From Liolophura sinensis (lineage: Eukaryota > Mollusca > Polyplacophora > Chitonida > Chitonidae): a stretch of 64,000 bases of DNA. The stretch covers positions 1,862,001 through 1,926,000 of the forward strand of contig NC_088304.1 of NCBI RefSeq assembly GCF_032854445.1, read 5' to 3'. Each line of letters starts with the position of its first letter. Positions within the stretch are counted from its first letter, which is position 1. The notes beneath the pieces were generated by a model. That model searched no databases, was not told where the DNA came from, and was given only the letters and a program-made list of their open reading frames with translations. Of this stretch, positions 6,477 through 45,299 are shown piece after piece. Both the position numbers and the translations under genes were made by a program.

Positions 6477-6783
6477 CATGGGTTTCAGAAGACGTTAAAG
6501 CTGCCAGTCTTGACATTTCTTGGTTTGGCACTTACTCAACACTAAAACAGTAAATGATGTATATGTTATATGAAAGATATTAAACAGTGTCCAGAAAAAC
6601 AGTTTGACATAATTTTTTATAAAATTGTTTTCTGCTAAGTAAACAGGTTTCAAAACATCAGATTCTACACTGGTCTGTAGTAGACCATGCAGGGAGTCTC
6701 AGTGATGGTACATCCACATCCATATTGTCAAGGTCCATTTGGCAAATGCCTTCATGGATCTGTACGTGTACATGTCCATTTTG

Positions 6784-9700
6784 AGTGATTAAATGGAGCG
6801 GTCTGTGTGTGCTAACCTAAGTGTCGTCACTGGTGCCAATATGAGTGATGAAATGTAGCAGTCTGTGTGTGCTAACCTAAGTGACGTCACTGGTGCCAAT
6901 ATGAGTGATGAAATGTAGCAGGCTGTGTGTGCTAACCTAAGTGTCGTCACTGGTGCCAATATGAGTGATGAAATGGAGCAGTCTGTGTGTGCTAACCTAA
7001 GTGTCGTCACTGGTGCCAATATGAGTGATGAAATGTAGCAGTCTGTGTGTGCTAACCTAAGTGACGTCACTGGTGCCAATATGAGTGATGAAATGTAGCA
7101 GTCTGTGTGTGCTGACCTAACTGACGTCACTGGTGCCAATATGAGTGATGAAATGTAGCAGTCTGTGTGTGCTAACCTAAGTGACGTCACTGGTGCCAAT
7201 ATGAGTGATGAAATGTAGCAGTTTGTGTGTGCTAACCTAAGTGATGTCACTGGTGCCAATATGAGTGATGAAATGTAGCAGTCTGTGTGTGCTAACCTAA
7301 GTGATGTCACTGGTGCCAATATGAGTGATGAAATGGAGCAGTCTGTGTGTGCTGACCTAAGTGTCGTCACTGGTGCCAATATGAGTGATGAAACGTAGCA
7401 GTCTGTGTGTGCTGACCTAAGTGTCGTCACTGGTGCCAATATGAGTGATGAAATGTAGCAGTGTGTGTGTGCTAACCTAAGTGACGTCACTGGTGCCAAT
7501 ATGAGTGATGAAATGTAGCAGTGTGTGTGTGCTAACCTAAGTGATGTCACTGGTGCCAATATGAGTGATGAAATGTAGCAGTCTGTGTGTGCTAACCTAA
7601 GTGTCGTCACTGGTCCCAATATGAGTGATGAAATGTAGCAGGCTGTGTGTGCTAACCTAAGTGTCGTCACTGGTGCCAATATGAGTGATGAAATGTAGCA
7701 GTGTGTGTGTGCTAACCTAAGTGATGTCACTGGTGCCAATATGAGTGATGAAATGTAGCAGTCTGTGTGTGCTAACCTAAGTGACGTCACTGGTCCCAAT
7801 ATGAGTGATGAAATGTAGCAGGCTGTGTGTGCTAACCTAAGTGTCGTCACTGGTGCCAATATGAGTGATGAAATGTAGCAGTGTGTGTGTGCTAACCTAA
7901 GTGATGTCACTGGTGCCAATATGAGTGATGAAATGTAGCAGCCTGTGTGTGCTAACCTAAGTGACGTCACTGGTGCCAATATGAGTGATGAAATGTAGCA
8001 GTGTGTGTGTGCTAACCTAAGTGTCGTCACTGGTGCCAATATGAGTGATGAAATGTAGCAGTCTGTGTGTGCTAACCTAAGTGTCGTCACTGGTGCCAAT
8101 ATGAGTGATGAAATGTAGCAGTCTGTGTGTGCTGACCTAAGTGACGTCACTGGTGCCAATATGAGTGATGAAATGTAGCAGTCTGTGTGTGCTGACCTAA
8201 GTGACGTCACTGGTGCCAATATGAGTGATGAAATGTAGCAGTCTGTGTGTGCTGACCTAAGTGACGTCACTGGTCCCAATATGAGTGATGAAATGTAGCA
8301 GTCTGTGTGTGCTGACCTAAGTGACGTCACTGGTCCCAATATGAGTGATGAAATGTAGCAGTCTGTGTGTGCTAACCTAAATGATGTCAGTGGTCCCAAT
8401 ATGAGTGATGAAATGTAGCAGCCTGTGTGTGCTAACCTAAGTGACGTCGCTGGTGCCAATATGAGTGATGAAATGTAGCAGTCTGTGTGTGCTAACCTAA
8501 GTGATGTCGCTGGTGCCAATATGAGTGATGAAATGTAGCAGTCTGTGTGTGCTAACCTAAGTGTCGTCACTGGTGCCAATATGAGTGATGAAATGTAGCA
8601 GTCTGTGTGTGCTAACCTAAGTGATGTCACTGGTGCCAATATGAGTGATGAAATGTAGCAGCCTGTGTGTGCTAACCTAAGTGACGTCACTGGTGCCAAT
8701 ATGAGTGATGAAATGTAGCAGCCTGTGTGTGCTAACCTAAGTGATGTCACTGGTGCCAATATGAGTGATGAAATGTAGCAGTCTGTGTGTGCTAACCTAA
8801 GTGACGTCACTGGTGCCAATATGAGTGATGAAATGTAGCAGTCTGTGTGTGCTAACCTAAGTGATGTCACTGGTGCCAATATGAGTGATGAAATGTAGCA
8901 GTCTGTGTGTGCTAACCTAAGTGATGTCACTGGTGCCAATATGAGTGATGAAATGTAGCAGCCTGTGTGTGCTAACCTAAGTGATGTCACTGGTGCCAAT
9001 ATGAGTGATGAAATGTAGCAGCCTGTGTGTGCTAACCTAAGTGACGTCACTGGTGCCAATATGAGTGATGAAATGCAGCAGTCTGTGTGTGCTAACCTAA
9101 GTGACGTCACTGGTGCCAATATGAGTGATGAAATGTAGCAGTCTGTGTGTGCTAACCTAAGTGACCTCATTGGTGCCAATATGAGTGATGAAATGCAGCA
9201 GTCTGTGTGTGCTAACCTAAGTGACGTCACTGGTGCCAGTATGAGTGATGAAATGTAGCAGTCTGTGTGTGCTAACCTAAGTGATGTCACTGGTGCCAAT
9301 ATGAGTGATGAAATGTAGCAGTCTGTGTGTGCTAACCTAAGTGTCGTCACTGGTGCCAATATGAGTGATGAAATGCAGCAGTCTGTGTGTGCTAACCTAA
9401 GTGATGTCACTGGTGCCAATATGAGTGATGAAATGCAGCAGTCTGTGTGTGCTAACCTAAGTGTCGTCACTGGTGCCAATATGAGTGATGAAATGTAGCA
9501 GCCTGTGTGTGCTAACCTAAATGATGTCGCTGGTGCCAATATGAGTGATGAAATGTAGCAGTCTGTGTGTGCTAACCTAAGTGATGTCGCTGGTGCCAAT
9601 ATGAGTGATGAAATGGAGCAGTCTGTGTGTGCTAACCTAAGTGATGTCGCTGGTGCCAATATGAGTGATGAAATGGAGCAGTCTGTGTGTGCTAACCTAA

Positions 9701-12700
9701 GTGATGTCGCTGGTGCCAATATGAGTGATGAAATGTAGCAGCCTGTGTGTGCTAACCTAAGTGACGTCACTGGTGCCAATATGAGTGATGAAATGTAGCA
9801 GCCTGTGTGTGCTAACCTAAGTGATGTCGCTGGTGCCAATATGAGTGATGAAATGGAGCAGCCTGTGCGTGCTAACCTAAGTGATGTCGCTGGTGCCAAT
9901 ATGAGTGATGAAATGGAGCAGTCTGTGTGTGCTAACCTAAGTGATGTCGCTGGTGCCAATATGAGTGATGAAATGTAGCAGTCTGTGTGTGCTAACCTAA
10001 GTGATGTCACTGGTCCCAATATGAGTGATGAAATGTAGCAGGCTGTGTGTGCTAACCTAAGTGTCGTCACTGGTCCCAATATGAGTGATGAAATGTAGCA
10101 GGCTGTGTGTGCTAACCTAAGTGTCGTCACTGGTGCCAATATGAGTGATGAAATGTAGCAGCCTGTGTGTGCTAACCTAAGTGATGTCACTGGTGCCAAT
10201 ATGAGTGATGAAATGTAGCAGTCTGTGTGTGCTAACCTAAGTGACGTCACTGGTGCCAATATGAGTGATGAAATGGAGCAGTCTGTGTGTGCTAACCTAA
10301 GTGATGTCACTGGTGCCAATATGAGTGATGAAATGTAGCAGTCTGTGTGTGCTAACCTAAGTGACGTCACTGGTGCCAATATGAGTGATGAAATGTAGCA
10401 GTCTGTGTGTGCTAACCTAAGTGTCGTCACTGGTGCCAATATGAGTGATGAAATGCAGCAGTCTGTGTGTGCTAACCTAAGTGACGTCACTGGTGCCAAT
10501 ATGAGTGATGAAATGTAGCAGCCTGTGTGTGCTAACCTAAGTGATGTCACTGGTGCCAATATGAGTGATGAAATGTAGCAGCCTGTGTGTGCTAACCTAA
10601 GTGACGTCACTGGTGCCAATATGAGTGATGAAATGCAGCAGTCTGTGTGTGCTAACCTAAGTGACGTCACTGGTGCCAATATGAGTGATGAAATGTAGCA
10701 GTCTGTGTGTGCTAACCTAAGTGACCTCATTGGTGCCAATATGAGTGATGAAATGCAGCAGTCTGTGTGTGCTAACCTAAGTGACGTCACTGGTGCCAGT
10801 ATGAGTGATGAAATGTAGCAGTCTGTGTGTGCTAACCTAAGTGATGTCACTGGTGCCAATATGAGTGATGAAATGTAGCAGTCTGTGTGTGCTAACCTAA
10901 GTGTCGTCACTGGTGCCAATATGAGTGATGAAATGCAGCAGTCTGTGTGTGCTAACCTAAGTGATGTCACTGGTGCCAATATGAGTGATGAAATGCAGCA
11001 GTCTGTGTGTGCTAACCTAAGTGTCGTCACTGGTGCCAATATGAGTGATGAAATGTAGCAGCCTGTGTGTGCTAACCTAAATGATGTCGCTGGTGCCAAT
11101 ATGAGTGATGAAATGTAGCAGTCTGTGTGTGCTAACCTAAGTGATGTCGCTGGTGCCAATATGAGTGATGAAATGGAGCAGTCTGTGTGTGCTAACCTAA
11201 GTGATGTCGCTGGTGCCAATATGAGTGATGAAATGGAGCAGTCTGTGTGTGCTAACCTAAGTGATGTCGCTGGTGCCAATATGAGTGATGAAATGTAGCA
11301 GCCTGTGTGTGCTAACCTAAGTGACGTCACTGGTGCCAATATGAGTGATGAAATGTAGCAGCCTGTGTGTGCTAACCTAAATGATGTCGCTGGTGCCAAT
11401 ATGAGTGATGAAATGGAGCAGCCTGTGCGTGCTAACCTAAGTGATGTCGCTGGTGCCAATATGAGTGATGAAATGGAGCAGTCTGTGTGTGCTAACCTAA
11501 GTGATGTCGCTGGTGCCAATATGAGTGATGAAATGTAGCAGTCTGTGTGTGCTAACCTAAGTGATGTCACTGGTCCCAATATGAGTGATGAAATGTAGCA
11601 GGCTGTGTGTGCTAACCTAAGTGTCGTCACTGGTCCCAATATGAGTGATGAAATGTAGCAGGCTGTGTGTGCTAACCTAAGTGTCGTCACTGGTGCCAAT
11701 ATGAGTGATGAAATGTAGCAGCCTGTGTGTGCTAACCTAAGTGATGTCACTGGTGCCAATATGAGTGATGAAATGTAGCAGTCTGTGTGTGCTAACCTAA
11801 GTGACGTCACTGGTGCCAATATGAGTGATGAAATGGAGCAGTCTGTGTGTGCTAACCTAAGTGATGTCACTGGTGCCAATATGAGTGATGAAATGTAGCA
11901 GTCTGTGTGTGCTAACCTAAGTGACGTCACTGGTGCCAATATGAGTGATGAAATGTAGCAGTCTGTGTGTGCTAACCTAAGTGTCGTCACTGGTGCCAAT
12001 ATGAGTGATGAAATGCAGCAGTCTGTGTGTGCTAACCTAAGTGACGTCACTGGTGCCAATATGAGTGATGAAATGTAGCAGTCTGTGTGTGCTAACCTAA
12101 GTGTCGTCACTGGTGCCAATGTGAGTGATGAAATGTAGCAGTCTGTGTGTGCTAACCTAAGTGATGTCGCTGGTGCCAATATGAGTGATGAAATGTAGCA
12201 GCCTGTGTGTGCTAACCTAAGTGATGTCGCTGGTGCCAATATGAGTGATGAAATGGAGCAGTCTGTGTGTGCTAACCTAAGTGATGTCGCTGGTGCCAAT
12301 ATGAGTGATGAAATGTAGCAGTCTGTGTGTGCTAACCTAAGTGACGTCACTGGTGCCAATATGAGTGATGAAATGTAGCAGCCTGTGTGTGCTAACCTAA
12401 GTGATGTCACTGGTGCCAATATGAGTGATGAAATGGAGCAGTCTGTGTGTGCTAACCTAAGTGACGTCACTGGTGCCAATATGAGTGATGAAATGTAGCA
12501 GTCTGTGTGTGCTAACCTAAGTGACGTCACTGGTGCCAATATGAGTGATGAAATGTAGCAGTCTGTGTGTGCTTACCTAAGTGAGGTCACTGGTGCCAAT
12601 ATGAGTGATGAAATGTAGCAGCCTGTGTGTGCTAACCTAAGTGACGTCACTGGTGCCAATATGAGTGATGAAATGCAGCAGTCTGTGTGTGCTAACCTAA

Positions 12701-14400
12701 GTGACGTCACTGGTGCCAATGTGAGTGATGAAATGCAGCAGTCTGTGTGTGCTAACCTAAGTGTCGTCACTGGTGCCAATGTGAGTGATGAAATGTAGCA
12801 GTCTGTGTGTGCTAACCTAAGTGATGTCGCTGGTGCCAATATGAGTGATGAAATGTAGCAGCCTGTGTGTGCTAACCTAAGTGATGTCGCTGGTGCCAAT
12901 ATGAGTGATGAAATGGAGCAGTCTGTGTGTGCTAACCTAAGTGATGTCGCTGGTGCCAATATGAGTGATGAAATGTAGCAATCTGTGTGTGCTAACCTAA
13001 GTGACGTCACTGGTGCCAATATGAGTGATGAAATGTAGCAATCTGTGTGTGCTAACCTAAGTGACGTCACTGGTGCCAATATGAGTGATGAAATGTAGCA
13101 GCCTGTGTGTGCTAACCTAAGTGACGTCACTGGTGCCAATATGAGTGATGAAATGGAGCAGTCTGTGTGTGCTAACCTAAGTGACGTCACTGGTGCCAAT
13201 ATGAGTGATGAAATGTAGCAGTCTGTGTGTGCTAACCTAAGTGACGTCACTGGTGCCAATATGAGTGATGAAATGTAGCAGTCTGTGTGTGCTTACCTAA
13301 GTGACGTCACTGGTGCCAATATGATTGATGAAATGTAGCAGTCTGTGTGTGCTAACCTAAGTGATGTCACTGGTGCCAATATGAGTGATGAAATGGAGCA
13401 GCCTGTGTGTGCTAACCTAAGTGATGTCACTGGTGCCAATATGAGTGATGAAATGTAGCAGCCTGTGTGTGCTAACCTAAGTGACGTCACTGGTGCCAAT
13501 ATGAGTGATGAAATGGAGCAGTCTGTGTGTGCTAACCTAAGTGACGTCACTGGTGCCAATATGAGTGAAGAAATGTAGCAGCCTGTGTGTGCTAACCTAA
13601 GTGATGTCACTGGTGCCAATATGAGTGATGAAATGTAGCAGTCTGTGTGTGCTAACCTAAGTGATGTCACTGGTGCCAATATGAGTGATGAAATGTAGCA
13701 GCCTGTGTGTGCTAACCTAAGTGATGTCACTGGTGCCAATATGAGTGATGAAATGTAGCAGTCTGTGTGTGTTAACCTAAGTGTCGTCACTGGTGCCAAT
13801 ATGAGTGATGAAATGTAGCAGCCTGTGTGTGCTAACCTAAGTGACGTCACTGGTGACAATATGAGTGATGAAATGTAGCAGTCTGTGTGTGCTAACCTAA
13901 GTGACGTCACTGGTGCCAATATGAGTGATGAAATGTAGCAGTTTGTGTGTGCTAACCTAAGTGACGTCACTGGTGCCAATATGAGTGATGAAATGTAGCA
14001 GTCTGTGTGTGCTGACCTAAGTGTCGTCACTGGTGCCAATATGAGTGATGAAATGTAGCAGCCTGTGTGTGCTAACCTAAGTGACGTCACTGGTGCCAAT
14101 ATGAGTGATGAAATGTAGCAGCCTGTGTGTGCTAACCTAAGTGATGTCACTGGTGCCAATATGAGTGATGAAATGTAGCAGCCTGTGTGTGCTAACCTAA
14201 GTGACGTCACTGGTGCCAATATGAGTGATGAAATGTAGCAGTCTGTGTGTGCTAACCTAAGTGATGTCACTGGTGCCAATATGAGTGATGAAATGGACCA
14301 GTCTGTGTGTGCTAACCTAAGTGATGTCGCTGGTGCCAATTTGAGTGATGAAATGTAGCAGTCTGTGTGTGCTAACCTAATTGATGTCACTAGTCCCAGT
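6784..14400. repeat. 60-bp satellite array, ~127 copies, carrying CRE palindromes
   Basis: The monomer contains aaatgtagcagtctgtgtgt, gctaacctaagtgacgtcac and tggtgccaatatgagtgatg. Strict 60-bp periodicity holds for 7.6 kb. Variation is concentrated at a few sites: tgtagca/tggagca/tgcagca, gtctg/gcctg/ggctg, and gacgtcac/gtcgtcac/gatgtcac/gatgtcgc. About 45 units carry the full TGACGTCA palindrome, and nearly all carry CCAAT downstream of it. The - strand frame of 1916 codons (20-residue repeat with LAHTD...ISSLILAP) is a by-product of a stop-free unit of 20 codons, not a supported gene. It lies in the putative first intron of TRMT2A, or just upstream of the gene. Confidence 0.97.
8941..12060. 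repeat. 1560-bp higher-order duplication inside the 60-bp satellite
   Basis: Blocks 8941-10500 and 10501-12060 (26 monomers each) match monomer for monomer. Diagnostic variants recur at a spacing of 1560: gtgacctcat (9121 line, 10681 line), ccagt (9181, 10741), gcctgtgcgt (9841, 11401) and aatgatgtcgc (9481, 11041). I saw one mismatch (gtgatgtcgc against aatgatgtcgc at 9781/11341). Flanking monomers (8881, 12061) no longer match, so the block edges are sharp. Confidence 0.9.
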
Positions 14401-15106
14401 ATGATTAGAACAAGGCCACCATAGAACCAGCGTAGTTTCAAATGCATTTCGGTAGACTGAAAAAAAGCTAAAAAAAATAAATCAAACTAATTTTATAGAC
14501 ATTGTTAAATGGTCTTTCATTTGATATATACTTCACACTAGCGGTTTGTTTGCCTTCAAGGGATAGGTGAGGTTGGCACATTGTTAGAATATACTGACAG
14601 GAGGCTCAGGGGGTGTTCTGTTTGGTATCTTTGGCATAGCATTCCAGTTAGGCAGCACTAAAGATGTTGCCTTGTGACATTGGTATTTTAATTATTTCAA
14701 ACGAACAGTAAAAGCATCTGGGCCCAGTTTCACAAAGTGTCTCACAACATTTATTCATTGTACGTTTGTCATATGCCAATTTACCTTACGATATTTTGCA
14801 TGTCACTACTCCCGTGCCATTGTCTTTGATCGTGCGATGATCGGTGATCTGGCCAGAATCCTGTACAGACAATACCAATACTAGTATGACTTCTGTGAAC
14901 AGGGGTCAGTGCACAGCCTCAGTCTCAGCTTTTATTGCAAGAAAATATATTATTGCTGTGATAAGAAAGATATTGTCAAAATTCCCTTTAATTAAGTAAA
15001 GTGAATTAGGAAATGTTTGTTCAAGGATTTTACCAGATTTGGTGTGTTGTGCAATATTTTGCAAGTCATTAACATTATGTTTCTCTCTTGTTTTTTTCTT
15101 TTTCAG
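14401..15106. other. unique intron sequence before TRMT2A exon 1
   Basis: AT-rich with no repeat array and no recognisable element. It ends in a pyrimidine tract (ttctctcttgtttttttctttttcag) that forms a strong acceptor. Confidence 0.5.
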
Positions 15107-24400: not shown

Positions 24401-27400
24401 TAAACCGGCACTGTATAAGTGAAAACTTCCTGAGTATAGCAGAATATCAGTCAGTAAAATAAATTAATTAATTTGTGCTTGCTGTACTTAACACCTGTGT
24501 AATTTGCTGCTCTCTCGTGTCACCCACAGCCCATTCTGACGGGTTACAGAAATAAGTGTGAGTTCACGCTGGGATGTAGTCCTGAAGGTCAAGGTTAGTC
24601 TGCGACAGTAACAACATAACAGCATTACGCTAAATGCACTATTATTGCACCATTATTGTGTTGATGTCTTAGGGTCCCAGTGATATGGAGGGCTGGCTAG
24701 AGACCACAGTGACATTGCTTGCATTGCTGTCACCACGTGTTTATGTTTGTGATGTCGGTGTATAGGACGTTGCTGTGGTTTCAAGATGGTGAACCCTAAC
24801 CCCATTTCTTCTCATTTTTGGGACAGATATTTGGAGTGTTGAAAGTACAATTTTACATTCTTTTACCAGCTTTTTGGAAAAGTAAAGATATGAGTATGTT
24901 GTTCATTAGATTGTCTAATGATGTGAGAGAAAGGAAAGTCAGTATTCCTGCTAGAAATACATATATAGTGGCTAAAATGAACAGACGAGGTGTCCCAAAA
25001 AGAAATAGGGTACACGGGTAGTTTAATGTCTTTACAGTGTCATCGTTTCTGAATATTTCCGACCATTAACAGAAAATTTGCATATTATACATGGATTATT
25101 AAGAAATGTATAATATGCCTAAAAATAATTTCTTTTCTTCTCCAGGTTTTTTTTTTAGCCTAAATTTCTTTGTGTTCCCTAAACCATGTTCTTTACTTTA
25201 TTTTACCTTTTCATGTGTCCTTTAAGTAAACTACCAGCTGCACCACAGACAGTATGATGGTATCACTTAATAGACCAAGAGCTTCTCTGGATACAAGATC
25301 TTTAGATTGTGTCTAAGGTTGGTGCCCAGTTGGTGAGGTCTTTTAAGAATCCATCCCCTGCCAGATTACAGAGTAACTGGGAGAATAGTTGTCTTGTGTA
25401 CATTCTCCTTCCCACTAACTGAGTTGTCTGGCTTGTGTAAATAATACTGTAAAACTTGTTGAAGACGTCAATGATGTAAATATTTCCATTTTATTGCAGA
25501 GAAGACCCTGGGTTTTAGATTGGGCAAGTACAGCGGTGGAAGTAGCAGTGTTGGAGAACCGTACGAGTGCAGCCTTCTCTCCGAGAAAATGAAACACATC
25601 GTGAAGGTTTGTCAGAGTGTTACGATATTGTGTCTCCAAAAATAACAAAAATATTCGTGGTAAATGTTTTAAAATTTGATATGTAATGTTGATGAGAGAA
25701 TGTGTTCATTAACATTTTTGTCGAAAATCTATGTCTCATTATGAGCATTCATCTTATGTTAAAACTACCGTAGTTCGCCTAAAGTTTGACCTGTTCAAAT
25801 TCACTTTCAGAAGCACACAAAGGCCTTAAAATGATTCTTTTGATATCAACGCTAAAGATTTTCTGATATTAAAAACATTGATCAGATTAGAAAAAAAAAA
25901 AACAAAAAAAAATGTAAAATATAAGAGGCCCTCTAAGGTAGATAAATCAATTAGAAACTTGAAAAATATTAGTCAATTGAAAAATGTTAGTCACTTGAAA
26001 AATATTAGTCACTTGAAAAATGTTAGACTTTACTTGAAATCCATGTTAAGTATCCTGATTTGAGAATGTGTACACAGGTATGACATGATGAAAACAGTAT
26101 TATTCTTCAGACAAAATTAATATGTCTGCAGTTTTTGTTGTAGCACAATTTGTGGTATTTGATGGCAGGTGTTCCAGGAATATTTCAGAGCAAGTAAGTA
26201 TGCAGCTTTTGATCCCGAAACTCACAAGGGAAACTGGAGACAGCTCACTGTGCGAGAAACCCGAAGTGGAGAAATTATGACTTTCCCAGAATTCCACCCT
26301 CAGGAATTCACACAGGTTAGATGGTTTTCTCTTTTCATAAAGAGTTTGGAGTGCCATAATTTCAAACTTATGACAGTTTTATGCCAGTTGTGGATTTTGA
26401 CTTTCATGGAGCTGCATCAAAACAGCTTTAACCAGTAATGGACAGTCAGTGTGAAAACACAACTTACAGAATGTATGTTACACATATATTGGAACGAAAG
26501 CTATGTGTGACTGTTGCAGGAGGAGATAGAAGCAGAAGTGAAATTTCTGCAGGATTATTTTATGACAGGCCCTGGTAAAGACAGTGGGATAGCAGCCATG
26601 TATTTCTCCGTCTCTTCAGAAAGGTAAACATGACAAGAATGAATGAATGAATAGGGTTGAGATTGAGTCAGCAGAGACCGGGGACTCAAGTGTTCTTATA
26701 ACATTGCATATCGGTGGTGACCCCAAAAGTTGAACATGGTTTAGCTTAGCGGGTGCTGATCACAGCTGGCCATGTTCTCATCTGGCTGTGTTCTCATCTG
26801 GCCGTGTTCTCATCTGGCTGTGTTCTCATCTGGCCGTTCTCATCAAGGCTTGTATTGGTAGTATTTCAGCCAATTTCGCATTTTTACATTAACCACTTCT
26901 TCCATTTTATTTGTGAATTATTTTTTCTCAACAATGATTTACTGTACAGGTTCCACTTTCAAAAACCTTGTATATCAATTTTCGCAACTTTTCTTCCAAA
27001 TCACATCACCTTAATTTGTTAACACTCACGTTATTTATGAAAAAGTCAGGAGAAAGCTGATTTATGGTTACTGAATTTTGTTATAGTGGCCCCAGAAATC
27101 TGGGCCATTATGTGAGCAAGCTATAGTGGCCCCAGAAATTTGGGCAATTATATGAGTAAGCTATAGTAGCCCCAGAAATCTGGGCAATTATGTGAGTAAG
27201 CTCTAGAGGCCCCAGAAATCTGGGCAATTATGTGAGTAAGCTATAGTGGCCCCAGAAATCTGGACAATTATGTGAGTAAGCTATAGTGGCCCCAGAAATC
27301 TGGGCAATTATGTGAGTAAGCTATAGTGGCCCTAGAAATCTGGGCAATTATGTAAGTAAGCAATAGTGGCCCCAGAAATCTGGGCAATTATGTGAGTAAG

Positions 27401-30400
27401 CTATAGTGGCCCTAGAAATCTGGGCAATTATGTAAGTAAGCTATAGTGGCCCTAGAAATCTGGGCAATTATGTGAGTAAGCTATAGTGGCCCCAGAAATC
27501 TGGGCAATTATGTGAGTAAGCTCTAGAGGCCCCAGAAATCTGGGCAATTATGTAAGTAAGCTATAGAGGCCCCAGAAATCTGAGCAATTATGTGAGTAAG
27601 CTATAGAGGCCCCAGAAATCTGGGCAATTATGTAAGTAAGCTATAGTGGCTGCAGAGATCTGGGCAAATATGTAAGTAAGCTATAGTGGCCCCAGAAATC
27701 TGGACAATTATGTAAGTAAGCTATAGTGGCCCCAGAAATCTGGGCAATTATGTGAGTAAGCTCTAGAGGCCCCAGAAATCTGGGCAATTATGTAAGTAAG
27801 CTATAGTGGCCCAAGAAATCTGGGCAATTATGTAAGTAAACAGGTTTACAGAATTTTGCTATTGTGGCCCCAGAAATCTGGGCAATTATGTAAGTAAGCT
27901 ATAGAGGCCCCAGAAATCTGAGCAATTATGTGAGTAAGCTATAGAGGCCCCAGAAATCTGGGCAATTATATAAGTAAGCTATAGTGGCCGCAGAGATCTG
28001 GGCAAATATGTAAGTAAGCTATAGTGGCCCTAGAAATCTGGGCAATTATGTAAGTAAGCTATAGTGGCTGCAGAGATCTGGGCAAATATGTAAGTAAGCT
28101 ATAGAGGCCCCAGAAATCTGGGCAATTATGTAAGTAAGCTATAGTGGCCGCAGAGATCTGGGCAATTATGTGAGTAAGCTATAGTGGCCCCAGAAATCTG
28201 GGCAATTATGTGAGTAAGCTATAGTGGGCCCCAGAAATCTGGGCAATTATGTGAGTAAGCTCTAGAGGCCCCAGAAATCTGGGCAATTATGTGAGTAAGC
28301 TATAGTGGGCCCCAGAAATCTGGGCAATTATGTGAGTAAGCTATAGTGGCCCCAGAAATCTGGGCAATTATGTGAGTAAGCTATAGTGGCCCTAGAAATC
28401 TGGGCAATTATGTGAGTAAGCTATAGTGGGCCCCAGAAATCTGGGCAATTATGTAAGTAAGCTATAGTGGCCCCAGACATCTGGGCAATTATGTAAGTAA
28501 GCTATAGTGGCCCAAGAAATCTGGGCAATTATGTAAGTAAACAGGTTTACAGAATTTTGCTATAGTGGCCCAAGAAATCTGGGCAATTATGTGAGTAAGC
28601 TATAGTGGCCCTAGAAATCTGGGCAATTATGTGAGTAAGCTATAGTGGGCCCCAGAAATCTGGGCAATTATGTAAGTAAGCTATAGTGGGCCCCAGAAAT
28701 CTGGGCAATTATGTGAGTAAGCTCTAGAGGCCCCAGAAATCTGGGCAATTATGTGAGTAAGCTATAGTGGGCCCCAGAAATCTGGGCAATTATGTGAGTA
28801 AGCTATAGTGGCCCCAGAAATCTGGGCAATTATGTGAGTAAGCTATAGTGGCCCTAGAAATCTGGGCAATTATGTAAGTAAGCTATAGTGGCCCCAGAAA
28901 TCTGGGCAAATATGTAAGTAAACAGGTTTACAGAATTTAAGTAAATATTTTATTTTAAATTTAAATTCTCTGTGTCTCAATGGACTGAAGCGTTTGTTTT
29001 GCTTAGCTCAAGACCGTGATGCACAAGGTCACAGGGTCACAGGGTGGTGTTCAGCTTGTGCTTGATCTTGACCTACTGTTAGTCTGGAGGTTTGTCAGAG
29101 CCCAACTCCCACAAACCTGACTCAGAGTAAAAGTGAAATTTCCGTGTAACAATCAATGAAAACGGTTTGACTACAGTTGAATGTTTGAGGAACAAGTCCA
29201 TGTGACTGGCCAGAGGTGGAATGTAACCAGTTACCCTAATTCCTCGCATATCAAAGAACAACTTTCAGTGCAATGTTATACACATTTTTTATATGATTTT
29301 AGACTAAACTACATTTGTTGGATGAATCAGTTTCAGGGCCTCACAAAAAGTATAATTTTATCAGTCAATATAGAAGAATGCCTTCAGAATATGCTTCAAT
29401 AAATCTCTTGCAAACATCTGAAAAGGTTGAGGAATTATTGGAAGTGACAATTTGTGTTTCAGGATATCTGGTACTGCTACATTGCCCACCCGCCATGTTT
29501 TTGGGGAAAAGGTTGGTATTGTCAAGCTTCTCTGCCACAAATTCAGATATCCTGTGAAAAGATCGGTTGTAGTCATGTACCCCAACACAAGCAGAATTTT
29601 CCAACCCCTGCACGGCCATGGCTGGGTGGTGCGCTGATCGAGTGGTTAACATGCCAGCATAGAGCACAGTCAGCCTGGAGCCTCTCACCAATGTGGTCGC
29701 TGTGAGTCCCTGCACGGCCATGGCTGGGTGGTGCGCTGATCGAGTGGTTAACATGCTAGCGTAGAGCACAGTCAGCCTGGAGCCTCTCACCAATGTGGTC
29801 GCTGTGAGTCCCTGCACGGCCATGGCTGGGTGGTGCACTGATCGAGTGGTTAACATGCTAGCATAGAGCACAGTCAGCCTGGAGCCTCTCACCAATGTGG
29901 TCGCTGTGAGTCCCTGCACGGCTATGGCTGGGTGGTGCACTGATCGAGTGGTTAACATGCTAGCGTAGAGCACAGTCAGCCTGGAGCCTCTCACCAATGT
30001 GGTCGCTGTGAGTCCCTGCACGGCCATGGCTGGGTGGTGCACTGATCGAGTGGTTAACATGCTAGCGTAGAGCACAGTCAGCCTGGAGCCTCTCACCAAT
30101 GTGGTCGCTGTGAGTCCCTGCACGGCCATGGCTGGGTGGTGCACTGATCGAGTGGTTAACATGCTAGCATAGAGCACAGTCAGCCTGGAGCCTCTCACCA
30201 ATGTGGTCGCTGTGAGTCCCTGCACGGCCATGGCTGGGTGGTGCACTGATCGAGTGGTTAACATGCTAGCGTAGAGCACAGTCAGCCTGGTGCCTCTCAC
30301 CAATGTGGTCGCTGTGAGTCCCTGCACGGCCATGGCTGGGTGGTGCACTGATCGAGTGGTTAACATGCTAGCGTAGAGCACAGTCAGCCTGGAGCCTCTC

Positions 30401-33400
30401 ACCAATGTGGTCGCTCTGAGTTCAAGTCGGCTTCCTCTCTGATCATATGTTTGAAGTTCTGCCAGAAACCTGTGGATGGTTGTGGGGGGTTCCTGCCTCT
30501 TTGAAACCTTGTTTGGAATTGTGTTCTGTCTAAAGATATGGAAAACTTATCATGAATATCTTAGGGTATTGCATGATCAAGAAAAGCATGTACTGACACA
30601 TAGGGATACCCAGTATCCATAACCAGTATCCATAACCAGTATCCATACCCAGTATCCATGACCAGTATCCATACCCAGTATATGAGGATATTGTAGTATG
30701 GTACAAATATGCTCAGTATCCATACCCAGTATCCATGACCAGTATCCATACCCAGTATCCATACCCAGTATCTATACCATACCCAGTATCCATACCCAGT
30801 ATCTATAACATACCCAGTATCCATACCCAGTATCTATACCATACCCAGTATCCATACCCAGTATCCATGACCAGTATCCATACCCAGTATATGAGGATAT
30901 TGTAGTATGGTACAAATATGCTCAGTATCCATACCCAGTATCCATACCCAGTATATGAGGATATTGTAGTATGGTACAAATATACTATTTTTCTAAAGCA
31001 TTGTGTTTTTCCAAAAAAACGTTTTACTGCCTACTTTGGGATAGTTTTCTGTAAAAGGAATGAAACACTTAGATGAAGTGAGCAGCAATAGAAATACCAT
31101 AAAATCTGAATCTGAAAACATATTTTATATATATATATATCACTTGTTCAGGGTTTTTTGTTTTCTCCTCTAGAATTAAATGTAGTCAAATACATTTGAC
31201 CTTTCTGCTACTGTGTCATCAGTGACATCGCACAGCTGTTACTACACCTTTATGTTCATTCAAGTTCCAATGAAATTCTTGTTGACTTGAGTCATGTAAT
31301 GAGTGTCTGTGCAGGAAAAAGTGAATATATTAAATTCCAGTATATACATAGCATCAACATAGCTATTATTCTGACGGTTCAATTACCACCAGGGGATTGC
31401 ATTTGTGTATTTTTTGAATTGTTTTTCATTCGACTCAGTACATCACAGAAGATCTGCTGGAAATGAAGTTCAGAATCTCACCTGATGCATTTTTCCAAGG
31501 TGAGAGAACTCTGTTCTGTAAATCTGTTGACTTTTGAGATTTACCTGAAAGACATTTTTGGAATATTTTTATGTGTTGAAATGGTAATTGTCAAATTGGT
31601 GAATCTGGACTTAAACTTTTGGGTGACATTACATGTGTGTTGATATAACCGGAAAGCAGTTAAATTTGAAATGTTTTCTAAAAAATGTTACTTTTGTAGT
31701 GAACACAGCAGCAGCTGAAGTTCTTTATAAGACTGTTGCTGATTGGTGCAATGCTTCACCAACCACAACTGTTCTAGACATTTGCTGCGGGACTGGAACC
31801 ATTGGACAGAGTATGTCAAAGGTAAATGTTTCTCTTGACCTTGGACAGACATGCCCAGGAGAGGAAGTCGGCCCAGGAGAGGAAGTCGGCACATATTTAA
31901 AGATAGAACAGTTACACTATAAAATATTTGTTAAATTTACTAGAAATCACTGGCTACACTGAAATAGATTTTTCCACCATGTCCACGTAAGCATTGCTGT
32001 CAGAAGTTGTCTTTCATGGCCCACTTCTAAAAAACTTCATAAATTAATTTTCATTATAAATCATGTTACCTTGTAACCTAGACAAATCTAAAAAAATTTC
32101 TGAAATATTTGGGATTTACAGTTTTGCGAAAGTTGCAGTACGATGTAGATAATAGAGACCTTCCATTTCAAGATACAAGATACAAACTTCTACCTGAAGG
32201 TCTCTGTTGTCAAGATTATGTAAGGCCATTTTGTTTTTTCATGCCATCAGCAAATGTTCTCCGTGCTGTTTATTTCAGAGAGTGGGGAAGGTTGTTGGTA
32301 TAGAGATGTGTCGGTCAGCAGTAGAGGATGCCAAAGAGAATGTAAAACTCAACAGTAAGTTGTTAGGATAATGATGACGACAATCACACTTTGACAGCCT
32401 GTGAACAGTTTTTTATTTTGTTTTCTTGGAGTGGTTCATAGTTAGTTAGTTATGAGGCCTGTCAACCAGTCATGCCAGGCTGCAGGGCCCGGTTGTTGAG
32501 TTAGTTATGAGGCTTGTCAACCAGTCATGCCAGGCTCCAGGGCCAGGTTGTTGAGTTAGTTATGATGCTTGTCTGCCAGTCATGCCAGGGTCCAGGGCCT
32601 GGTTGTTGAGTTAGTTATGATGCTTGTCTACCAGTCATGCCAGGCTCCAGGCCCCGGTTGTTGAGTTAGTTATGATGCTTGTCAACCAGTCATGCCAGGC
32701 TGCAGGGCCCGGTTGTTGAGTTAGTTATGATGCTTGTCGACCAGTCATGCCAGGCTTCAGGGCCCGGCTGTTGAGTTAGCTATGATGCTTGTCTACCAGT
32801 CATGCCAGGGTCCAGGGCCCAGTTGTTGAGTTAGTTATGAGGCTTGTCTACCAGTCATGCCAGGCTCCAGGGCCGGGTTGTTGAGTTAGTTATGAGGCTT
32901 GTCTACCAGTCATGCCAGGGTCCAGGGCCTGGTTGTTGAGTTAGTTATGAGGCTTGTCTGCCAGTCATGCCAGGCTCCAGGGCCCGGTTGTTGAGTTAGT
33001 TATGATGCTTGTCTACCAGTCATGCCAGGGTCCAGGGCCTGGTTGTTGAGTTAGTTATGAGGCTTGTCTACCAGTCATGCCAGGCTCCAGGGCCCGGTTG
33101 TTGAGTTAGTTATGATGCTTGTCTACCAGTCATGCCAGGGTCCAGGGCCTGGTTGTTGAGTTAGTTATGAGGCTTGTCTACCAGTCATGCCAGGGTCCAG
33201 GGCCCGGTTGTTGAGTCAGTTATGAGGCTTGTATACCTGTCATGCCAGGCTCCAGGGCCCGGTTGTTGAGTCAGTTATGAGGCTTGTATACCTGTCATGC
33301 CAGGCTCCAGGGCCCGGTTGTTGAGTTAGTTATGAGGCTTGTCTACCAGTCATGCCAGTCTCCAGGGCCCGGTTGTTGAGTTAGTCATGAGGCTTGTCAA

Positions 33401-44389: not shown

Positions 44390-44900
44390 GATCATTTGAG
44401 AGTATTCAGATTAAAGGTAAAGAAAACAGTAAAACGTAAGCATTTGAGAATATACAGATTAAAGGTAAGGGAAACACTACAATGTAACCATTTGAGAATA
44501 TACAGAATAAAGGTTTAGAAAACACTAGAATGTAACCATTTGAGAGTATACAGAATAAAGGTTTAGAAAACACTAGGACGTAACCATTTGAGAGTATACA
44601 GAATAAAGGTACAGAAAACACTACAATGTAACCATTTGAGAACATACAGAATAAAGGTTTAGGAAACACTACAATGTAACCATTTGAGACTATACAGATT
44701 AAAGGTAAAGGAAACATTACAACATAACCATTTGAGAACATACAGAATAAAGGTTTAGGAAACACTACAATGTAACCATTTGAGACTATACAGATTAAAG
44801 GTAAAGGAAACACTACAACATAACCATTTGAGAACATACAGAATAAAGGTTTAGGAAACACTATAATGTAACCATTTGAGCTTATACAAATTAAAGGTAA
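44390..44900. repeat. 48-bp tandem array, ~10 copies
   Basis: The unit is catttgagaatatacagatt, aaaggtaaaggaaacact, acaatgtaac. Two variants alternate (cagattaaaggtaaagg and cagaataaaggtttagg). The - strand 151-codon frame over it is a repeat artefact. Confidence 0.92.
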
Positions 44901-45299
44901 AGAAAATGTTCAAGTGAAGTATGTGTCAGATGAAAGGTCATTAAACACTGTACCAGAAAAGTATCTGATTTGTTTTTTTCAGAATGTTTCCACTCTAGTA
45001 AAATGGCTTCAAAGATTCGATTACTTCACATTAGTGTTTTCTTTACCTTTTAAGTCATATACATGTAACATGATACATGTACCAGTAGAAGCACAGCTGG
45101 CCCCAAACGTCACTGATTCAAAACTTTTCATCTTAAATCATTATTTTCTCGGTCTACACAGATACAAAATGCTCCTACTTTTCAGGTAATAGCATAATAA
45201 AAAGATGTGGTCATAAGCTCTTCCCTTCAGGCTCAAAATTCTACAGCCTTTTTAACTTTTAGGTTGTAAGCACTTGAACAGAAGTGCAAATAAAATAAT

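Follow-up and report, generated by a model that had tools for sequence, protein, structure and literature searches.

What becomes of an intron that carries dozens of words resembling its own 5′ splice site? The question is raised by a 64,000-nt stretch of the genome of the chiton Liolophura sinensis (NCBI RefSeq assembly GCF_032854445.1, contig NC_088304.1, positions 1,862,001 to 1,926,000; hereafter the window, in whose numbering positions are given), where an intron of a predicted TRMT2-family gene holds a minisatellite with a donor-like word in nearly every unit. Its anatomy, the strength of its words, its confinement to one locus and the frequency of similar arrays together point to a ready answer: the array is very probably a neutral minisatellite private to its locus, grown by unequal exchange or slippage, whose pseudo-donors are for the most part non-productive.

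The minisatellite occupies positions 27082-28938 of the + strand and, as read from the Tandem Repeats Finder (TRF) rows together with a unit census, comprises 45 anchored units of 40 or 41 bp in three blocks. The unit consensus is AGTGGCCCCAGAAATCTGGGCAATTATGTGAGTAAGCTAT, and the TRF rows of 40-bp period show 92-95% matches. Head-to-tail units in the range of ~10-100 bp and an array of at least 0.5 kb place it among the minisatellites, or variable number tandem repeats (VNTRs). Units are spaced by 40 or 41 bp, except at two 58-bp steps, where an 18-bp spacer repeats the array's right edge. These spacers, at ~27840 and ~28540, are copies of that edge (AAACAGGTTTACAGAATTT), and GTAAGTAAACAGGTTTACAGAATTT closes each of the three blocks. 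The left edge (GGTTACTGAATTTTGTTATAGTGG) is similar to the same word, and the blocks were probably duplicated along with their edge.

Sense GTRAGT (R, A or G) occurs in 42 of the 45 units, 23 times as GTGAGT and 19 times as GTAAGT, and the - strand of the array has none. An earlier note on this DNA had counted about 46 tandem donor-like sites, one to a unit and each beside a hairpin. The dense sense array is real, but the count is 42; three of the 45 units read GTGAGC, ATGAGT and ATAAGT instead, and the perfect inverted repeat CCCAGAAATCTGGG is present 25 times, fewer than there are units. Among longer words, GTRAGTAA is found 42 times and GTRAGTAAG 39 times, and the series of TAT/GTRAGTAA (the slash marks the would-be splice junction) runs from 27112, a GTGAGC variant, to 28919. 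The local density is considerable: 42 + strand GTs with a U1 duplex of -7 kcal/mol or lower fall within the 1.86-kb array, versus 90 in the remaining 62.1 kb of the window. The 42 sites nevertheless go back to a single event, a motif-bearing unit that tandem copying then propagated, and do not count as independent. The repeat is also private. When the 609-Mb assembly was searched with the 24-base unit core, allowing up to 3 mismatches, 43 of 43 matches lay at this locus (stretches of N being invisible to the search), and the spacer word had 3 exact matches, all at the array.

Splice signals and reading frame served to trace the exons of the host gene in the window, and the recovered set lies outside the stretch from 15461 to ~24530. 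Immediately upstream of the array intron is a 104-nt coding exon (26520-26623, + strand; EEIEAEV...YFSVSSE), with acceptor TTGCAG/GAG and donor AAG/GTAAAC, that joins its flanking exons in frame. The intron itself, of ~2.84 kb (26624-29462), runs from this donor, which the earlier note had placed correctly at 26624, to the acceptor TTTCAG/GATATC. The next coding exon (29463-29511, 49 nt), (R)ISGTATLPTRHVFGEK, fits both neighbours in phase and aligns through its junctions with a solved RNA methyltransferase, so that the array intron sits between YFSVSSE(R) and (R)ISGTATLPTRHVFGEK. The joined protein scores 67.2 bits against PF05958 (tRNA_U5-meth_tr; cut-off 23) and 154.3 bits over residues 1-329 against TIGR00479, which is under the equivalog cut-off of 183.55. 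It also aligns along the RNA-uridine methyltransferase family and matches solved RNA methyltransferases, the best being SP_1029, in an alignment spanning the exon junctions on either side of the array intron. Because of these matches, the predicted product places the gene in the TRMT2 family of tRNA 5-methyluridine (m5U) methyltransferases. The more specific label of TRMT2A given earlier is likely, rather than TRMT2B; no Pfam match that might represent an N-terminal RNA recognition motif was found at E up to 1 in the first-exon translation, other N-terminal exons being outside the recovered set.

How strong are the array words as donors? The donor matrix and acceptor score applied here are human-type measures, not trained on this genome. 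A search of the genome for U1 genes gave 41 matches, 40 above the Rfam cut-off, and at the two loci read the genes begin ATACTTACCTG. TAT/GTRAGTAA is complementary to U1 over +1 to +7, the predicted pairing including a G-U pair at +3 for GTGAGT. Array sites score 2.68 on the matrix when GTGAGT (n=23) and 2.22 when GTAAGT (n=19), with U1 duplex energies of -7.1 and -7.0 kcal/mol, respectively; the intron's true donor, AAG/GTAAAC, scores 2.71 and -6.8 kcal/mol. By both measures, then, the array words match their own intron's real donor in strength, and the complementarity to U1 claimed for them earlier holds. The 11 donors read in the host gene range from 0.94 to 6.64 on the matrix and from -5.6 to -11.1 kcal/mol, and G at -1 is missing in three of them (ACA, TAC, GGA), each a GTRAGT donor like the array sites. 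The possibility that T at -1 makes the sites weak, named beforehand as a refutation, was rejected: they match the true donor by both measures, and 3 of the 11 gene donors also lack G at -1.

Two side observations concern donors and U1 more generally. The host-gene donors (15461-37589) fall into two classes, GTRAGT occurring in 1 of 8 with G at -1 and in 3 of 3 without it, a modest case of the exon side and +5/+6 compensating for each other. In addition, the contig that carries the window (C10) holds a tandem cluster of U1 small nuclear RNA genes at 30,033,968-30,140,539, mostly at ~1.97-kb spacing; 34 of the 41 genome matches lie on this contig (33 above the Rfam cut-off), and 28 of them share one score.

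A probable history of the array can be outlined. A single 40-bp stretch of the intron would have been expanded by unequal exchange or replication slippage and, if the founding stretch happened to hold TAT/GTRAGTAA, copying would have yielded the 42 pseudo-5′ splice sites. Such sites could pair with U1 and yet would most likely be non-productive, because acceptor-like AGs in and before the array are few, the true donor would close its compact 104-nt exon first, and splicing from an array site instead would lengthen that exon by 488 or more nt of intron, in which a stop in frame comes at once. An acceptor score of at least 0 is reached by 2 of 199 array AGs (1 reaches 2), versus 8 of 10 natural acceptors of the host gene. 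Use of the first array word, at 27112, would produce an exon of 592 nt instead of 104 nt, whose reading frame would end one codon into the added intronic part. Exon definition and nonsense-mediated decay would be expected to keep use of the array donors rare or out of sight.

Words of this kind are also far from exceptional in the same gene. The coding exons hold pseudo-donors, one of which, CAA/GTAAGTATG at 26194-26202 (+ strand), is a long U1 complement that exceeds the array sites by matrix (4.62) and duplex energy (-7.5 kcal/mol), and coding continues through it. Another, AGT/GTGAGTTC at 24558, scores 2.40 and -6.5 kcal/mol. The next intron has a minisatellite of its own (29606-30421, + strand), with a 102-bp unit in 8 copies and 7 sense GCT/GTGAGT by TRF and word census. 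In human, 12,996 distinct 9-mers were taken from random GT loci, and 5,367 of them were identical to some annotated donor (PMC10599564). Because so many random GT 9-mers equal annotated donors, donor-like words that are no donors are the rule.

Tandem donor words are likewise plentiful in the genome at large. Counting three GTRAGT words spaced by 14-44 bases across the 609-Mb assembly gave 22,976 triples (11,192 forward and 11,784 reverse), versus ~258 expected per strand at the window's non-array rate of one word per 1,314 bases. Two families of control words behaved similarly, with 33,606 for backwards GTRAGT, 20,796 for AGTRGT and 43,268 for backwards AGTRGT. Repeated GTRAGT is thus plentiful for the same reason as other repeated words, namely the wealth of tandem arrays in this genome, and it does not exceed the control words used. 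The studied array contributes 34 triple start positions to the count. Among the 11,192 forward and 11,784 reverse triples, the 100 that were listed, all on a single strand of contig C1 and within its initial 1.71 Mb, form ~18 clusters by eye. One of these regions, C1:1,120,902-1,122,135, resembles the studied array in having ~40-bp units, many with AT/GTAAGT, although the unit sequence is unrelated.

A similar picture emerged within the window, which is itself dense in minisatellites, TRF giving 68 rows. From these, 25 non-overlapping arrays were picked by hand, with microsatellites, overlapping periods and several arrays of ~2-4 copies set aside; outside the host gene, "sense" was taken as the + strand only, and expectations came from units drawn from non-array sequence. 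The 25 arrays cover 25.9 kb of the window, and the 12 that start within the gene span fill 9.5 of its 24.4 kb. Those with at least 0.5 sites (matrix of at least 2) per copy number 3 of 25 on the + strand versus 2.83 expected (standard deviation 1.55), and 2 of 25 versus 2.35 expected on the - strand. The + strand arrays rich in GTRAGT have 40-bp, 102-bp and 75-bp units, a fourth array holding the word in 3 of ~127 copies, and none of the 25 carries strict GTRAGT in most copies on the - strand. With arrays of this type so frequent in the genome, the studied one looks like an ordinary and unremarkable repeat, which the cell most likely ignores. The earlier suggestion that its tolerance in a housekeeping gene is unusual is hard to maintain next to the neighbouring-intron array, the coding pseudo-donor at 26194 and the genome-wide abundance of tandem GTRAGT.

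Two other arrays of the window deserve mention in their own right. Outside the gene, a 48-bp array at 44393-44906 has 6 + strand donor-like sites in ~11 copies, the best of which, at 7.2, is far above the studied array. A 7.6-kb minisatellite at 6782-14404 has a 60-bp unit in 127 copies with 96% matches, and toward its right edge the - strand has a stop-to-stop reading frame of 397 codons (13293-14486).

Several observations nonetheless weigh against a silent, neutral array. Its sites equal the true donor, so sequence weakness leaves their silence unexplained. Neither can the hairpin be invoked, because local folding gives the 42 sites a mean 6-nt unpaired probability of 0.120, above the 0.063 of all array 6-mers and the 0.093 of the intron; sequestration of the sites was dropped as an explanation, since they are on average less often paired than other 6-mers of the array. 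Two AGs of the array are acceptor-like and have array donors downstream of them: the one at 27874, with a score of 3.3, surpasses 5 of the gene's 10 natural acceptors, and the one at 27096 reaches 1.5. Among the natural acceptors, one has a score as low as -5.9. Given these scores, pseudo-exons from the array are possible. According to work cited in PMC5933811, when U1 occupies two sites at once and these lie more than 40 nt apart, the downstream one is favoured. Finally, strict GTRAGT in most copies of three + strand arrays exceeds the 0.79 expected (P of at least 3 = 0.039, one strand).

The strongest competing idea is that the array acts on splicing, either by measurable competition with the true donor or as a source of pseudo-exons, so that splicing becomes less efficient or decay-targeted isoforms arise, and that array length tunes expression. 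Donors of equal strength outnumber the true one 42 to 1, the acceptor-like AG at 27874 lies upstream of many of them, and human ABCA7 offers a precedent, since excerpts of PMC5954066 describe a VNTR with one-unit retention of ~2% and a length that correlates with exon 19 skipping. The ABCA7 array, however, starts at the donor itself, whereas the studied array begins ~460 nt downstream. General knowledge of exon definition favours the proximal donor, acceptor-grade AGs are as scarce in the array as described above, and the gene's coding exons hold pseudo-donors of equal or greater score. Competition of this kind is accordingly judged improbable.

Still less probable is a U1 platform that aids the gene, either as an enhancer for the weak upstream donor or as a shield against premature polyadenylation. 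The placement is suggestive, with U1-complementary words downstream of a weak donor and the intron's single AATAAA (29398; there is no ATTAAA in 26624-29462) ~460 nt beyond the array. U1 bound downstream of a donor can also enhance that donor, as PMC5933811 reports for PAH. The PAH element, however, is 17-20 nt from its donor, and the array words are at least 488 nt away; moreover, arrays of this sort are frequent and do not exceed the control words, and the donor columns show no special conservation. Column 30 of the unit (donor +3) varies more than any other of the 40 columns, with 25 G and 20 A. Across the five further columns of GTRAGT, 3 of 225 cells hold a minor letter (1.3%), versus 5.2% in the 34 columns outside the word, and invariance equal to that of the five is found in 15% of random 5-column draws and in 22 of 40 contiguous six-column windows. 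Because array copies are not independent, this comparison has low power, and column conservation is weak evidence either way for selection on the donor word. In its fullest form, a cis U1 sponge or platform on which dense U1 would support the weak donor and silence the downstream AATAAA, array length thereby determining how much product a gene for tRNA modification yields, the idea is equally hard to credit; were it true, donor-word minisatellites might more broadly form a widespread tier of U1 control in a genome this rich in repeats.

That the array belongs to a dispersed mobile element carrying donor words can be put aside almost completely: its blocks end in the same spacer, as those of a modular element might, but dispersed copies with shared flanks were not found in the assembly, unit-core matches being confined to the locus and the spacer word having 135 places at up to 2 mismatches versus 108 for its backwards control, and a mobile element with internal repeats was dropped on account of this privacy.

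Even if it is, as seems probable, a neutral minisatellite of pseudo-donors, the array still has its uses. Nature has here supplied a single intron with many decoys of donor strength, a clean example suited to asking why donor sequence alone fails to decide splicing. Considering how frequent such arrays are, comparing sense with antisense orientation in annotated introns could measure selection against pseudo-donors.

How does the array compare with known systems? Neither this array nor any paper joining tandem repeats, splice donors and U1 was found in the open-licence literature searched. To go by its title, a 1995 study reportedly described a minisatellite that supplies several splice donors in one transcript, the gene being, to judge from the topics of citing papers, 6-16/G1P3/IFI6; its repeated donors are said to be used, whereas those of the studied array are candidates from sequence. 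The closest parallel may be the VNTR in intron 18 of human ABCA7, whose 25-bp unit, in the account given by excerpts of PMC5954066, begins with a donor GT in the sense orientation. The two are alike as intronic minisatellites with a sense donor GT per unit, and the array shares with it a donor-compatible sense word repeated within an intron of a predicted gene (42 of 45 units). They differ in that the first GT of the ABCA7 array is the true donor of exon 18, the donor one unit further being used at a low level, whereas the studied array lies ~460 nt downstream of its intron's donor and offers candidate donors. A third case, again from PMC5933811, is PAH intron 11, where a single intronic pseudo-5′ splice site is bound by U1. 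Both introns place a U1-complementary word downstream of the true donor, but PAH has one site of tested function and the studied array has 42 candidate sites within ~490-2290 nt of its donor. On these comparisons, donor-bearing intronic minisatellites are a known kind, of which the Liolophura array would be a further example, at the level of candidate sites.

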